This document shows, piece after piece, positions 4,893 through 8,685 of a stretch of 28,350 bases of DNA. Within the stretch, counting starts at the first letter, position 1, and the number at the start of each line of letters is the position of its first letter. A program made the position numbers and the translations under genes. The stretch is taken from IMG/VR virus record IMGVR_UViG_3300030331_002274, positions 1 to 28,350 of that record. The stretch is one strand, 5' to 3'. The notes beneath the pieces are model-generated. The model made no database searches. It was given only the letters and a program-made list of their open reading frames with translations, and was not told where the DNA came from. Source of the DNA: a virus.

Positions 4893-5972
4893 TTAGTTAT
4901 CTGTTTGTCGGGTTTCGTCCAATGTACCATAACTTTCGTCCAATGATACAACTATTTTTCCAATCACTTCCACAAGCCTTGGGACAACGCTGTTGCCTAG
5001 GGTTTTAACTCTGTCCACCCGATGGGGAACCCCATGAGCCATTCGAGGAAGGGCGGGTTCAAGGGGCCAGTCTCCCCCGCTTGCGAATTCACCAAGTCTG
5101 GGAGGCTGTTGGTTGGTAGTCTGCCCTTGGCTTCGAGTGTCTCGGCTTTCCTGCCGCCTTTGTAGTCCCTGGTCGTGGGGGTCGGGAACATTCCGGCCTT
5201 CTTCACTGCCGTTGCCAGACCATCGCCCGATTTCTGGCTGGCTCCCTTCGCGTTGTAGTTCCCGTTGACTGTTGGTGTGGGCCACAGAGCGGGATCTTTG
5301 ACCTGCTTTGACAGGCTGAGTTGGTTCGCGGTGTCCATGTTCTTCCAGTCCGAGTTCATCGGGGTGCGCCACATCCGCGCTTGATCGATCAACTGAGTCT
5401 GAAACTTCGAGCCGTCCGGCCTCCTCCAGTAGGAGCCCTCCCACCTCCACCCCTTGGCTTCTGCGTCCATCGGTATCCCGCCGCCGGTTCTCGCTGCCGG
5501 TGTAGCCCACAATCCAGACTCGGTCTCGTCGGTGGCGAGCATCGACGGCACAAGCTGGTAGTACAAACGTCCTGACTTCGTAGCCTTCGCGCTCCAGATC
5601 AGCGCACACATCGTCGAGTGCCATTCGGATGAACCCAGAAACGTTCTCGCCAATGACCCAGCGGGGCTGACACTCTCGTATAACTCTAAGCATCTCAGGC
5701 CAGAGGTGACGGTCATCGTCCTTCCCTTGTCGGAGTCCTGCGACTGAGAAGGGTTGGCATGGGAATCCTCCGCAAACAACGTCAACTGTTCCCCGATATG
5801 ATTGTCCATCTAAATCCCTTATATCTTCGTGTATGGGCATGTTAGGCCAGTGCTGGGCCAGTACCTTGCGGCAGAATGCATCCTTCTCACAGAAGGCGAC
5901 AGTCTCCATACCGGCAGCTTCCAGCCCCAAGGAGAACCCCCCTATCCCACTGAATAGATCCAGCACCTTCAT
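4893..5972 (-). CDS. DNA (cytosine-5) methyltransferase
   Basis: A 359-residue enzyme that transfers a methyl group from S-adenosylmethionine to cytosine C5 in a DNA target. C5-MTase motifs are in order: I DLFSGIGGFSLGLE (5-18, cofactor), IV GGFPCQPFS (68-76, catalytic C72), VI ENV (109-111), VIII RHRRDRVWIVG (147-157) and X LGNSVVP (325-331). Residues about 165-300 form a low-complexity, hydrophilic target-recognition region. A second ORF is nested there in another frame. No restriction endonuclease neighbour is visible, so this is probably a solo phage enzyme masking sites from host restriction or marking phage DNA. GAGGAT precedes the ATG. A 19-bp repeat lies 17 bp upstream of the start. 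Confidence 0.92.
   Translation of the reverse strand: MKVLDLFSGIGGFSLGLEAAGMETVAFCEKDAFCRKVLAQHWPNMPIHEDIRDLDGQSYRGTVDVVCGGFPCQPFSVAGLRQGKDDDRHLWPEMLRVIRECQPRWVIGENVSGFIRMALDDVCADLEREGYEVRTFVLPACAVDARHRRDRVWIVGYTGSENRRRDTDGRRSQGVEVGGLLLEEAGRLEVSDSVDRSSADVAHPDELGLEEHGHREPTQPVKAGQRSRSVAHTNSQRELQREGSQPEIGRWSGNGSEEGRNVPDPHDQGLQRRQESRDTRSQGQTTNQQPPRLGEFASGGDWPLEPALPRMAHGVPHRVDRVKTLGNSVVPRLVEVIGKIVVSLDESYGTLDETRQTDN
4997..5809 (-). CDS. ORF nested in the methyltransferase gene, other frame
   Basis: A 270-codon open frame lying wholly inside the methyltransferase gene, same strand, different frame, covering its residues ~55-325. An AAGGGAT sequence sits about four bases before the ATG at 5809. The product is not a random shadow by look: it has SLARTFLGSSEWHSTMC, repeated W-x-TP motifs (LWATPAARTGGG, LWPTPTVNGN, MFPTPTTRDYKGG) and the ending PLNPPFLEWLMGFPIGWTEL. 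From memory, ORFs with these same motifs recur inside phage C5-methyltransferase genes and are often deposited as separate hypothetical proteins. Either it is a true overprinted gene, or the motifs are the forced out-of-frame reading of a conserved methyltransferase region. I cannot decide from one sequence. Confidence 0.45.
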   Translation of the reverse strand: MDNHIGEQLTLFAEDSHANPSQSQDSDKGRTMTVTSGLRCLELYESVSPAGSLARTFLGSSEWHSTMCALIWSAKATKSGRLYYQLVPSMLATDETESGLWATPAARTGGGIPMDAEAKGWRWEGSYWRRPDGSKFQTQLIDQARMWRTPMNSDWKNMDTANQLSLSKQVKDPALWPTPTVNGNYNAKGASQKSGDGLATAVKKAGMFPTPTTRDYKGGRKAETLEAKGRLPTNSLPDLVNSQAGETGPLNPPFLEWLMGFPIGWTELKP

Positions 5973-5988: not shown

Positions 5989-6007
5989 TGGGCGCAAGAT
6001 GTACCTT
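5989..6007 (-). repeat. 19-bp dispersed repeat, copy 1
   Basis: Plus-strand reading TGGGCGCAAGATGTACCTT. It lies 17 bp upstream of the methyltransferase start, between it and the 6016-6288 gene. One of four near-identical copies within 590 bp. Confidence 0.8.
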
Positions 6008-6015
6008 GATCATTG

Positions 6016-6288
6016 TTAACATCCGCTACACCTATAAAGAATCCAGTCACGTCTCAAATCACTCATTCGACGCCGCACTAGATCCAGTTTGTCCGATCTG
6101 TAGTGATAGTCGTAAACGCAATCAGAAGCAGCCCAGAAATCTTTTCGAGTCATAAAGCCAGACTGAATGAGGTCATGCAGTTGTCGGTAAGCTTTGACTT
6201 CAGCGTCTTCGTCGGCATTTGCTTTGCGGTTCTTGCAAGTTGAAAGACGAACGAGTTGGTACGCTTTTTTCCATTGCTCTCTATTCAT
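6016..6288 (-). CDS. Hypothetical basic protein
   Basis: A 90-residue, Lys/Arg-rich, helical protein that I do not recognise. Start at 6288 with AGGAGGT nine bases upstream, a strong site. The C-terminus (VRRRMSDLRRDWILYRCSGC) is highly basic and aromatic and could bind nucleic acid. Three cysteines do not form a clear zinc pattern. Two copies of the 19-bp repeat lie directly upstream of its ribosome binding site. Confidence 0.65.
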   Translation of the reverse strand: MNREQWKKAYQLVRLSTCKNRKANADEDAEVKAYRQLHDLIQSGFMTRKDFWAASDCVYDYHYRSDKLDLVRRRMSDLRRDWILYRCSGC

Positions 6289-6307: not shown

Positions 6308-6347
6308 TGGGCGCAAGACGTACCTTTTTGGGCGCAAGACGTACCTT
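6308..6347 (-). repeat. 19-bp dispersed repeat, tandem copies 2 and 3
   Basis: TGGGCGCAAGACGTACCTT at 6308-6326 and again, identical, at 6329-6347: a 21-bp period, two DNA helical turns. They occupy the gap upstream of the 6016-6288 gene. Spacing by two helical turns is typical of sites bound cooperatively by a protein. Confidence 0.85.
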
Positions 6348-6361
6348 TATCAGAGGGTATC

Positions 6362-6502
6362 TCAATCTAATTGCCACGGTAGATCCCCCCACTTTTCAGA
6401 TTCTTTCTCGGCGTACTGTTGGGCTTCTTCCTCGCCCATGCCTTTCTTGATAGCTTCAAGGTAGAGGTTTTCGAGCAACATATCTCTGTATTCGTTAGAC
6501 AT
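6362..6502 (-). CDS. Small acidic hypothetical protein
   Basis: A 46-residue ORF. ATG at 6502 with AAGGAG about eight bases upstream; TGA at 6362-6364. The start overlaps the end of the 6495-6773 gene by 8 bp. The peptide is helical and acidic (GMGEEEAQQYAEKESEKWGD) and ends DLPWQLD. Good initiation signal, operon position and natural composition support a real gene; function unknown. Confidence 0.65.
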   Translation of the reverse strand: MSNEYRDMLLENLYLEAIKKGMGEEEAQQYAEKESEKWGDLPWQLD

Positions 6503-6773
6503 TTTGGCGCTCCTTAGCTATTGCTCCTTGGGCTGCTAGAATTTCAGCGTGTAGCTTCTTGGGCGCAAGATGTACCTGACTTGCTTGGTGTCGCCGCCGC
6601 AATTCAATCCGGCATACGTTCAAGGTGTCTAGCCATTGCTTGCTTTGCTCTTCGGTCGCGTCTGGGTAGCCCACCATTAATGATGCCATGTTGTGCAGCA
6701 TCTCCTGGATTTCAGAGATCCTCTCCATTGCGATTACCTTTTCACGCATTTCGTGAATGAATTGTTGGCTCAT
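6495..6773 (-). CDS. Hypothetical helical protein
   Basis: A 92-residue helical protein, start at 6773 overlapping the upstream stop (ATGA). Residues 10-35 look like an amphipathic helix. The C-terminal part (VHLAPKKLHAEILAAQGAIAK) is partly encoded by copy 4 of the 19-bp repeat, which contributes VHLAP. Not recognised. Confidence 0.65.
   Translation of the reverse strand: MSQQFIHEMREKVIAMERISEIQEMLHNMASLMVGYPDATEEQSKQWLDTLNVCRIELRRRHQASQVHLAPKKLHAEILAAQGAIAKERQNV
6560..6577 (-). repeat. 19-bp dispersed repeat, copy 4 (inside a gene)
   Basis: TGGGCGCAAGATGTACCT on the plus strand, 18 bases matching copy 1 exactly. It lies inside the 6495-6773 coding region, 58 bp upstream of the start of the 46-residue gene, so each of the three genes that follow has a copy ahead of it. 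Confidence 0.8.
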
Positions 6774-7773: not shown

Positions 7774-8685
7774 TTACGCTGCCTCCTCAGTTTGGTTCTC
7801 AGGTTGTGCCTTGACGATGTAATCCACCGCCTTTTGCGCTTCGGATGCGGCCTTGAAGATGTAGTCGACATCGTTGCCAAGTGCGGTCAGCCATGAAGCA
7901 ACGTAGTGCCCGTGATCTTCTCGCGCTTCGTTGGTTACGCCTAACTCAACGCAGAGCATCGCTGCCGTAAGCTCTGCAATGAGTTCCTCGAAGGCGTACC
8001 CGCGCTTGCTCTTGTCTTCCAGTCGGTTGAGCCGTGACTTGTGTCCCGTTGAGTGACCTGCCTCGTGCAAGTGTGTGCTGTACATGTTCTCTGTGGCGGT
8101 GCTGGTGTGCGTGTCGTTGAACTGCTCCGGCTTCGGCATGTTGATGGTGTCGGTAGATGGCTGGTAGAAGGCACCGCCTACAGGGTTGCGGGTGAGCTTC
8201 ACGCCGGTAGCTTTGTGATAGTTGGCAATGAATGCGTCCACCTTGGCGTTGCGCTCAGTGGTGTTAATCATCTCGGGCGCTTCTATCGGGTAAGGTGACC
8301 CGTCCTCGAATGAGGCAACGTCCTCGGCACGGTAAACGATGGCGGAACCAAAGCCTTTGCCCTTGTATTTCTTCTGAACTGAACCATCGGGCTGTTCTTC
8401 CTTGTCGTACAGATTGAATCCCTTGGTAATTCTGATGCCAACGTTCTTGCCCTTCTCGCCTAGTCCCGCGCAGTTGTAGCCCAGTTGTGCCCACTGCTTG
8501 AGCGTAGCCACCTTGGTGCATCCAAAGAAGCCAAGCCAAAAGGCGTTGAATCCACGGTACTTGTCGCCCGTGAGTGCGTTGGTGGGCATTGCGGTGAGGG
8601 TAGAGAATCCTGCTTGAAACGATCCGCCTTCGCCGACTATCTCAATGATCTGGTCTACGATCTGCTTTTTAAGTTCTGCTTTCAT
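7774..8685 (-). CDS. ardC: ArdC-type antirestriction protein
   Basis: A 303-residue protein. The N-terminal part matches the ssDNA-binding ArdC domain by its pattern (GFNAFWLGF, then KQWAQLGYN and KGKNVGIRITKGF near 78-90, and VYRAEDV). The C-terminal part is a zincin-like metallopeptidase with HEAGH at 207-211 and a downstream Glu-rich helix (EELIAEL, 233-239) giving the third zinc ligand. ArdC proteins protect incoming DNA from restriction and are found on conjugative plasmids and in phages. Its place in the same operon as the cytosine methyltransferase fits a DNA-protection module. AGGGA precedes the ATG at 8685. Confidence 0.88.
   Translation of the reverse strand: MKAELKKQIVDQIIEIVGEGGSFQAGFSTLTAMPTNALTGDKYRGFNAFWLGFFGCTKVATLKQWAQLGYNCAGLGEKGKNVGIRITKGFNLYDKEEQPDGSVQKKYKGKGFGSAIVYRAEDVASFEDGSPYPIEAPEMINTTERNAKVDAFIANYHKATGVKLTRNPVGGAFYQPSTDTINMPKPEQFNDTHTSTATENMYSTHLHEAGHSTGHKSRLNRLEDKSKRGYAFEELIAELTAAMLCVELGVTNEAREDHGHYVASWLTALGNDVDYIFKAASEAQKAVDYIVKAQPENQTEEAA

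Follow-up and report, generated by a model that had tools for sequence, protein, structure and literature searches.

A conserved gene overprinted on a phage C5-cytosine methyltransferase probably encodes a second subunit of the same enzyme

The C5-cytosine methyltransferase gene of a viral record of 28,350 bases (hereafter referred to as the window) encloses the whole of a second open reading frame (ORF) on the same strand, and this nested ORF is a real, conserved, overprinted gene. We consider it likely that the locus specifies a C5 methyltransferase made of two subunits, like M.EcoHK31I, in which the nested subunit would supply motif IX together with a set of exchangeable recognition cassettes. 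The nested gene itself, its conservation beyond that expected from the methyltransferase protein alone, the division of selection between the two frames, the want of a visible recognition domain in the enclosing chain and the exchange of cassettes were each computed directly.

RESULTS

A gene within the methyltransferase gene

We refer to the product of the enclosing ORF as the alpha chain, and to that of the nested gene as the beta chain (Table 1). An initial annotation of this DNA had described a 270-codon ORF inside the methyltransferase, in another frame of the same strand, and that is exactly what we find. The ribosome-binding site it had claimed for the ORF is present as an AAGGG ahead of the nested ATG; the recurring W-x-TP motifs prove to be four (W-x-TP or F-x-TP, at residues 101, 147, 176 and 208), and the ‘conserved-looking’ C-terminal end, LNPPFLEWLMGFPIGWTEL, does indeed contain invariant core residues.

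Synonymous shuffling of the methyltransferase codons left the nested frame of the window free of stops in none of 2000 trials (mean 7.1 stops), with the same shuffle producing between 0 and 43 stop-free trials per 2000 in 10 further loci. With the alpha protein kept and its codons resampled, a profile of the nested protein scored 84 ± 16 bits (maximum 142), as against 306 bits for the real frame of the window; for two loci that were left out of profile building, the corresponding scores were 220 for the real frame versus 60 for the null (L130) and 240 versus 66 (L123). A Shine-Dalgarno-like motif is found 5–16 bases upstream of the nested start in 135 of 191 loci, compared with 19% at frame-matched controls; the starts used for this count were assigned by rule, and some will be wrong. 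ATG serves as the nested start in 180 of 195 loci.

Table 1. Features of the methyltransferase locus, in window coordinates
Feature	Position	Strand	Remarks
C5-cytosine methyltransferase ORF (alpha chain)	4893..5972	-	359 aa; motifs I–VIII and X
Nested gene (beta chain)	4997..5809	-	270 aa; ATG start; +1 frame of alpha
AAGGG, Shine-Dalgarno-like site of nested gene	5816..5820	-	7–11 bases upstream of ATG
Alpha catalytic domain, residues 1–167 (motifs I–VIII)	5472..5972	-	AlphaFold pLDDT mostly >90
Alpha overlap segment, residues 168–317	5022..5471	-	predicted disordered; amino acids drift, frame open
Alpha motif X segment (LGNSVVP...)	4938..5021	-	from sequence; G326 and N327 invariant in A5
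Beta N-terminal domain, residues 1–100	5510..5809	-	overprinted on alpha catalytic motifs; identity above null
Beta cassette 1 (WATP), residues 101–146	5372..5509	-	
Beta cassette 2 (WRTP), residues 147–175	5285..5371	-	closely similar cassette in L014, L018 and L020
Beta cassette 3 (WPTP), residues 176–207	5189..5284	-	
Beta cassette 4 (FPTP), residues 208–249	5063..5188	-	
Beta motif-IX-like end LNPPFLEWLMGFPIGWTEL, residues 250–268	5006..5062	-	w for beta 0.47, for alpha 1.09

The alpha chain

Working from the N-terminus of alpha onwards, motifs I, IV (PCQ), VI (ENV) and VIII of the C5-cytosine methyltransferase catalytic domain are all present, with matches to PF00145 (2.7e-46, over residues 1–164 only) and phrog_363 (2.3e-82). 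Taken as a whole, the AlphaFold model aligns with M.HhaI (2i9k; VIA-align) over 205 residues, with a Z of 22.8 and an rmsd of 2.5. Beyond the catalytic domain the prediction is of low confidence across residues 170–320, pLDDT being below 50 nearly throughout 186–320, before the chain closes with a final helix (331–358). The profile match to M.HhaI covers residues 12–178, a second match at 299–318 (motif X) falling below significance; motif X of the window was assigned to alpha by its position and by the invariant G326 and N327. As the profile match stops at 178, and as residues 170–320 are of low confidence, no target-recognition domain is visible in alpha, either by M.HhaI profile or in the AlphaFold model, although a prediction of low confidence does not prove that one is absent.

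In the Komagataeibacter phage phiKX1 (L037, 1107–2753) the alpha frame extends to 548 codons, running uninterrupted through an ORF (2245–2763), HNH-like by sequence reading, that sits between the stop of the nested gene and motif X; an arrangement resembling the out-of-frame HNH insertions of PMC11855218. At two other loci (L109 near 2469, and L195 near 2532) alpha stops, as judged by eye, precisely at the junction of GGFP and CQP in the catalytic motif, with an HNH-like stretch, also seen by eye, just before the stop in L195; both stops possibly represent the site of an insertion element or intron.

The beta chain and its cassettes

Residues 6–268 of beta match phrog_1008 (E = 9.4e-32), a group labelled ‘DNA methyltransferase’. 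The catalytic motifs are, however, absent from the beta sequence, and the nested protein is more likely to be the partner chain than a methyltransferase. Neither Pfam nor NCBIfam contains a match for the nested protein, and its profile finds no solved structure by sequence at E up to 10; a fold search of the beta model in the PDB gave no match at E up to 0.001, and the equivalent search of BFVD gave six, two of which are named methyltransferases. With no structural match and a weak AlphaFold model (mean pLDDT 63), a recognition-domain fold is not seen in beta.

Across loci, beta has a common layout: an N-terminal domain, then 0–7 cassettes, each starting with W-x-TP or a variant of it, then LNPxxxEWLMGFPxGWT. 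Within this last element P252, E256, L258, M259, G260 and P262 are invariant across 77 rows of the alignment. The LNPxxxEWLMGFP stretch stands at the position of motif IX; its hhalign match to 12 canonical methyltransferases is not significant, being a short one that pairs LMGFP with LQGFP alone at a probability of <5%.

The census of cassettes stands at 596 in 197 loci, with a median length of 38 residues. Their sequences indicate that cassettes are swapped between loci: with redundant loci counted, cassette sets differ in 29 pairs of loci whose N-domains are at least 85% identical, while 269 pairs of cassettes at least 75% identical (some 100%) come from loci whose N-domains are less than 50% identical. 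L014, L018 and L020 illustrate the first of these behaviours, having different sets despite N-domains that are 96% identical. Exchangeable recognition modules would be expected to move in this way.

In L062, L111, L122 and L158 alpha stops right after motif VIII, and beta can be read as cassettes, IX-like motif and motif X in succession, which places the nested frame within the normal order of a C5 methyltransferase; L184 is a fifth locus classed as having an early alpha end and motif X in the nested frame. Three more loci (L089, L185 and L186) are frame hybrids, with the cassettes, IX-like motif and motif X found in unusual frames, suggesting either natural frameshifts or assembly errors.

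Selection in the two frames

The two frames can be separated because position 3 of each nested codon is position 1 of an alpha codon, and nested position 2 is alpha position 3. We calculated rate ratios (w) for 46 non-overlapping pairs at 70–98.5% DNA identity, each locus being used once; the ratios are uncorrected for multiple hits, with the transition weight fixed at 3, and in divergent pairs the alignment of cassettes inflates changes in both frames. For beta and alpha, respectively, w was 0.66 and 0.35 in the N-domain, 0.54 and 1.45 in the cassettes, and 0.47 and 1.09 in the motif IX end. Pairs involving the window, with rates likewise uncorrected and the same transition weight, show the same pattern: across residues 0–95 the values were 0.58 for beta and 0.10 for alpha in the closest set (0.93 and 0.39 for the window with L004), and from residue 95 onward 0.14 and 0.58 (0.27 and 1.44 for the window with L004).

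A second measure compared the identity of each nested protein to that of the window with the identity seen in 100 nulls, for which the alpha protein of the locus was kept and its codons resampled. In the N-domain (here beta residues 1–95) the real identity was 0.458, versus 0.271 for the null, and was higher than every one of the 100 nulls in 165 of 171 loci; the figures for the middle region were 0.408 versus 0.203 (171 of 172 loci), and for the IX end 0.672 versus 0.306 (165 of 170). Turning to the other frame, alpha is open through the cassettes in all 170 complete loci, when 4.3 would be expected (about 2.5% per locus) were the nested protein alone kept, a result that is partly by construction since the loci were selected as complete. 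The alpha frame reaches motif X in 177 loci (171 nested and 6 overlapping) of the 186 that are uncut.

Selection acts on both frames, for the most part in separate regions. Where the catalytic motifs lie it is dominated by the alpha frame; in the W-x-TP region and at the LNPxxxEWLMGFP end, beta is conserved and alpha drifts freely, though remaining open. That both frames might be under selection in a genuine large overlap, as initially proposed, is upheld by the rates, by the nulls and by the 171 of 199 loci that are nested; such large same-strand overlaps, with selection on both frames, are rare. The accompanying idea that the low-complexity target region of the enzyme itself is constrained by the second protein is not supported, as w for alpha is approximately 1.1–1.45 there and the region contains no recognisable target-recognition domain. 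With the selected frame changing along the length of the gene, the reason for the overlap can be read directly.

Distribution of the arrangement

A tblastn search with the nested protein found 76 phage records, mostly of Paenibacillus larvae, and a search of IMG/VR with the single protein found 30 loci. With an alignment of 19 proteins, IMG/VR provided at least 457 relatives among 600 candidate stretches, and a genome search 356 among 493, 80 being kept from each; the titles of the genomes concerned cover Bacillota, Bacteroidota, Chlorobiota, several proteobacterial classes, Acidobacteria, Planctomycetes, Treponema, Calditrichota and others. Viral contigs, phages and bacterial genomes all contribute loci, and many of these sources are metagenome-assembled. 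One chromosome record of a Roseovarius metagenome-assembled genome holds five copies of the locus (L130–L134), with identical match scores, identity and length.

We classified the window plus 198 loci, a set of 199 that is in part redundant and was found entirely through the nested protein. Nesting is complete and in the +1 frame in 171; the nested gene overlaps alpha but ends after it in 6, alpha ends early with motif X in the nested frame in 5, 4 are disrupted or atypical, and 13 are cut by contig ends. The nested frame is therefore not often broken by stops, and the motifs do, as the initial annotation held, recur in many phage methyltransferase loci. None of the 199 has the nested gene in any other frame of alpha, and none has a standalone beta; since the loci were found through beta, this near-universal pairing is partly by construction. 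In the reverse direction, across 10 genomes holding such a locus (30 loci covered, of 45 places listed), beta accompanied 12 of 12 alpha-like ORFs and none of the other C5 methyltransferases, which accounted for 17 loci, with one intermediate (L202) showing a weak, partial match to beta. Among the 170 complete cases, beta has a median length of 247 residues and covers a median 75% of alpha.

In the phage records examined, the nested protein is unannotated, or appears as ‘hypothetical’ or ‘methyltransferase’; it is the ‘g50 internal gene’ of Redbud and a ‘DNA-cytosine methyltransferase’ in Tadhana, both Fernvirus phages of Paenibacillus larvae. We found no description of a nested cassette protein in phages within the accessible portions of the open-licence literature searched.

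Neighbouring features of the window

An ArdC-like antirestriction protein is encoded at 7774–8685 on the minus strand (PF18818, 3e-35; PF08401; phrog_7245); it shares a gene cluster with the methyltransferase, which suggests that this is an antirestriction region. The sequence TGGGCGCAAGAYGTACCT occurs in four exact copies, at 5989–6006, 6308–6325, 6329–6346 and 6560–6577, where 0.04 copies would be expected even allowing up to 3 mismatches. They are found shortly upstream of minus-strand gene starts (the methyltransferase at 5972, an ORF at 6288 and possibly an ORF at 6502), with two further copies in L003, and the repeat is possibly a shared regulatory or operator element.

DISCUSSION

Our preferred reading of the locus is as follows. 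Alpha would comprise a catalytic large domain (motifs I–VIII), then a floppy segment, then a closing helix bearing motif X. Beta, presumably translated from its own start, would assemble with alpha into one enzyme, to which it would bring an N-terminal domain, its tandem W-x-TP cassettes acting as the DNA target-recognition region, and its motif-IX-like end, should it be motif IX, docking it to alpha. The segment of alpha in the overlap would then serve as a linker, its residues nearly free; because motif X lies beyond this linker, it must nevertheless remain open. Each cassette would be acquired, lost or exchanged as a whole, with both frames kept intact, such exchange changing or multiplying the sites that are methylated, presumably to shield phage DNA from host restriction.

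The proximity of an ArdC-like antirestriction gene, and the fact that beta has no detectable family or fold outside groups of phage proteins named as methyltransferases, could also be accommodated by a nested protein independent of methylation (with a role in host-takeover or anti-restriction, for example) and overprinted by happenstance. We hold this to be improbable: a standalone beta is absent among the 199 loci, beta carries motif X in some of them, and the C5 methyltransferases that occur without beta are of a different, canonical type. Moreover, alpha is without a visible recognition domain exactly where beta is conserved, on which grounds the sequences argue that the nested gene is probably a subunit of the same enzyme and not an unrelated second protein.

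We judge it very unlikely that the catalytic half of alpha is joined to the cassettes and IX-like motif by a programmed +1 frameshift past motif VIII, to give a near-canonical single chain and no separate beta. The order of these elements (VIII, cassettes, IX-like) is admittedly that of canonical enzymes, and in L062, L111, L122 and L158 alpha stops just past VIII with IX and X in beta; against this, Shine-Dalgarno-like sites precede the nested start at 135 of the 191 loci (19% in the control), the nested N-domain, needless for a fusion made after VIII, is conserved above what alpha alone would give in 165 of 171 loci, and a fusion from the arrangement of the window would lack motif X. That the nested ORF passively shadows codon and residue conservation in the methyltransferase is barely credible, being rejected by the codon shuffles (none of 2000 permutations being stop-free in the window), by the profile nulls (the real scores lying far above them) and by the identity nulls (165 of 171, 171 of 172 and 165 of 170 loci in the three regions), with alpha the drifting frame in the cassettes; part of the similarity in the N-domain is shadow all the same, the alpha-only null averaging 47–84 bits with the beta profile, and the invariant S36, G37, W72 and L86 of beta overlying conserved motifs of alpha.

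A two-subunit enzyme of this sort has precedents. M.EcoHK31I recognises YGGCCR and M.AquI CYCGRG, and the small gene of M.EcoHK31I is said, by Lee et al. in 1995, to be nested within the large gene in another frame. According to PMC3404938, M.EcoHK31I is a C5 methyltransferase of two polypeptides, with motifs I–VIII and X in the large chain and motif IX in the small. The locus described here likewise has I–VIII and X in its large chain and a small gene nested in another frame, and the IX-like end of its small chain may correspond to motif IX. The likeness is one of architecture; the locus differs in the variable tandem W-x-TP array of beta and in an alpha seemingly without a recognition domain. 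In the same source, the target-recognition domain predicted for M.EcoHK31I lies in the large subunit, not the small, which by analogy counts against recognition by beta. In M.AquI, again from PMC3404938, the large chain has motifs I–VIII and the small chain part of the variable region plus IX–X, as matched by L062, L111, L122 and L158, whereas the window and the 171 nested loci have X in alpha and beta fully nested. Motif X in the small chain, a trait of the M.AquI type, is accordingly absent from the window and occurs in some relatives only. Searches of plasmids for M.EcoHK31I itself returned relatives, none of them named EcoHK31I or EaeI, and the locus on a Klebsiella aerogenes plasmid has no annotated restriction enzyme nearby.

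The cassettes recall a different group. The multispecific C5 methyltransferases of Bacillus phages SPR, phi3T, rho11 and H2 are single chains, encoded in a single frame, with a variable region reportedly made up of exchangeable recognition modules of ~40 residues (work attributed to Trautner et al. in 1996 and Gunthert et al. in 1986). Here too there are several exchangeable modules of ~40 residues, their recognition role being putative; unlike those of the Bacillus phage enzymes, they reside in a separate, overprinted chain. An out-of-frame HNH insertion in ShiLan likewise puts a second frame inside a phage methylase gene, but is, in PMC11855218, a homing insertion, whereas the overprinted protein here is an inherited part of the locus.

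Looking at the family as a whole, we give slightly better than even chances to a broader proposal: that phages and prophages possess a widespread class of C5 methyltransferase whose two chains come from different frames of a single gene, the overprinted one being a combinatorial series of target-recognition cassettes, shuffled from phage to phage in units that leave both frames intact, such that one small locus may reprogramme or multiply its targets. Across the cassettes the catalytic frame would persist as no more than an open linker leading to motif X, under almost no selection, and roles would be split by region instead of single residues carrying a double constraint. Nesting as a kind is already known; the cassette array, the breadth of distribution and the regional division of selection look new.

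Split methyltransferases are being engineered for targeted DNA methylation, and the locus offers a natural template for them. If the cassettes are recognition modules, then swapping them would allow the connection between sequence and DNA target to be tested, and phages would own a compact, recombinable code for evading restriction.
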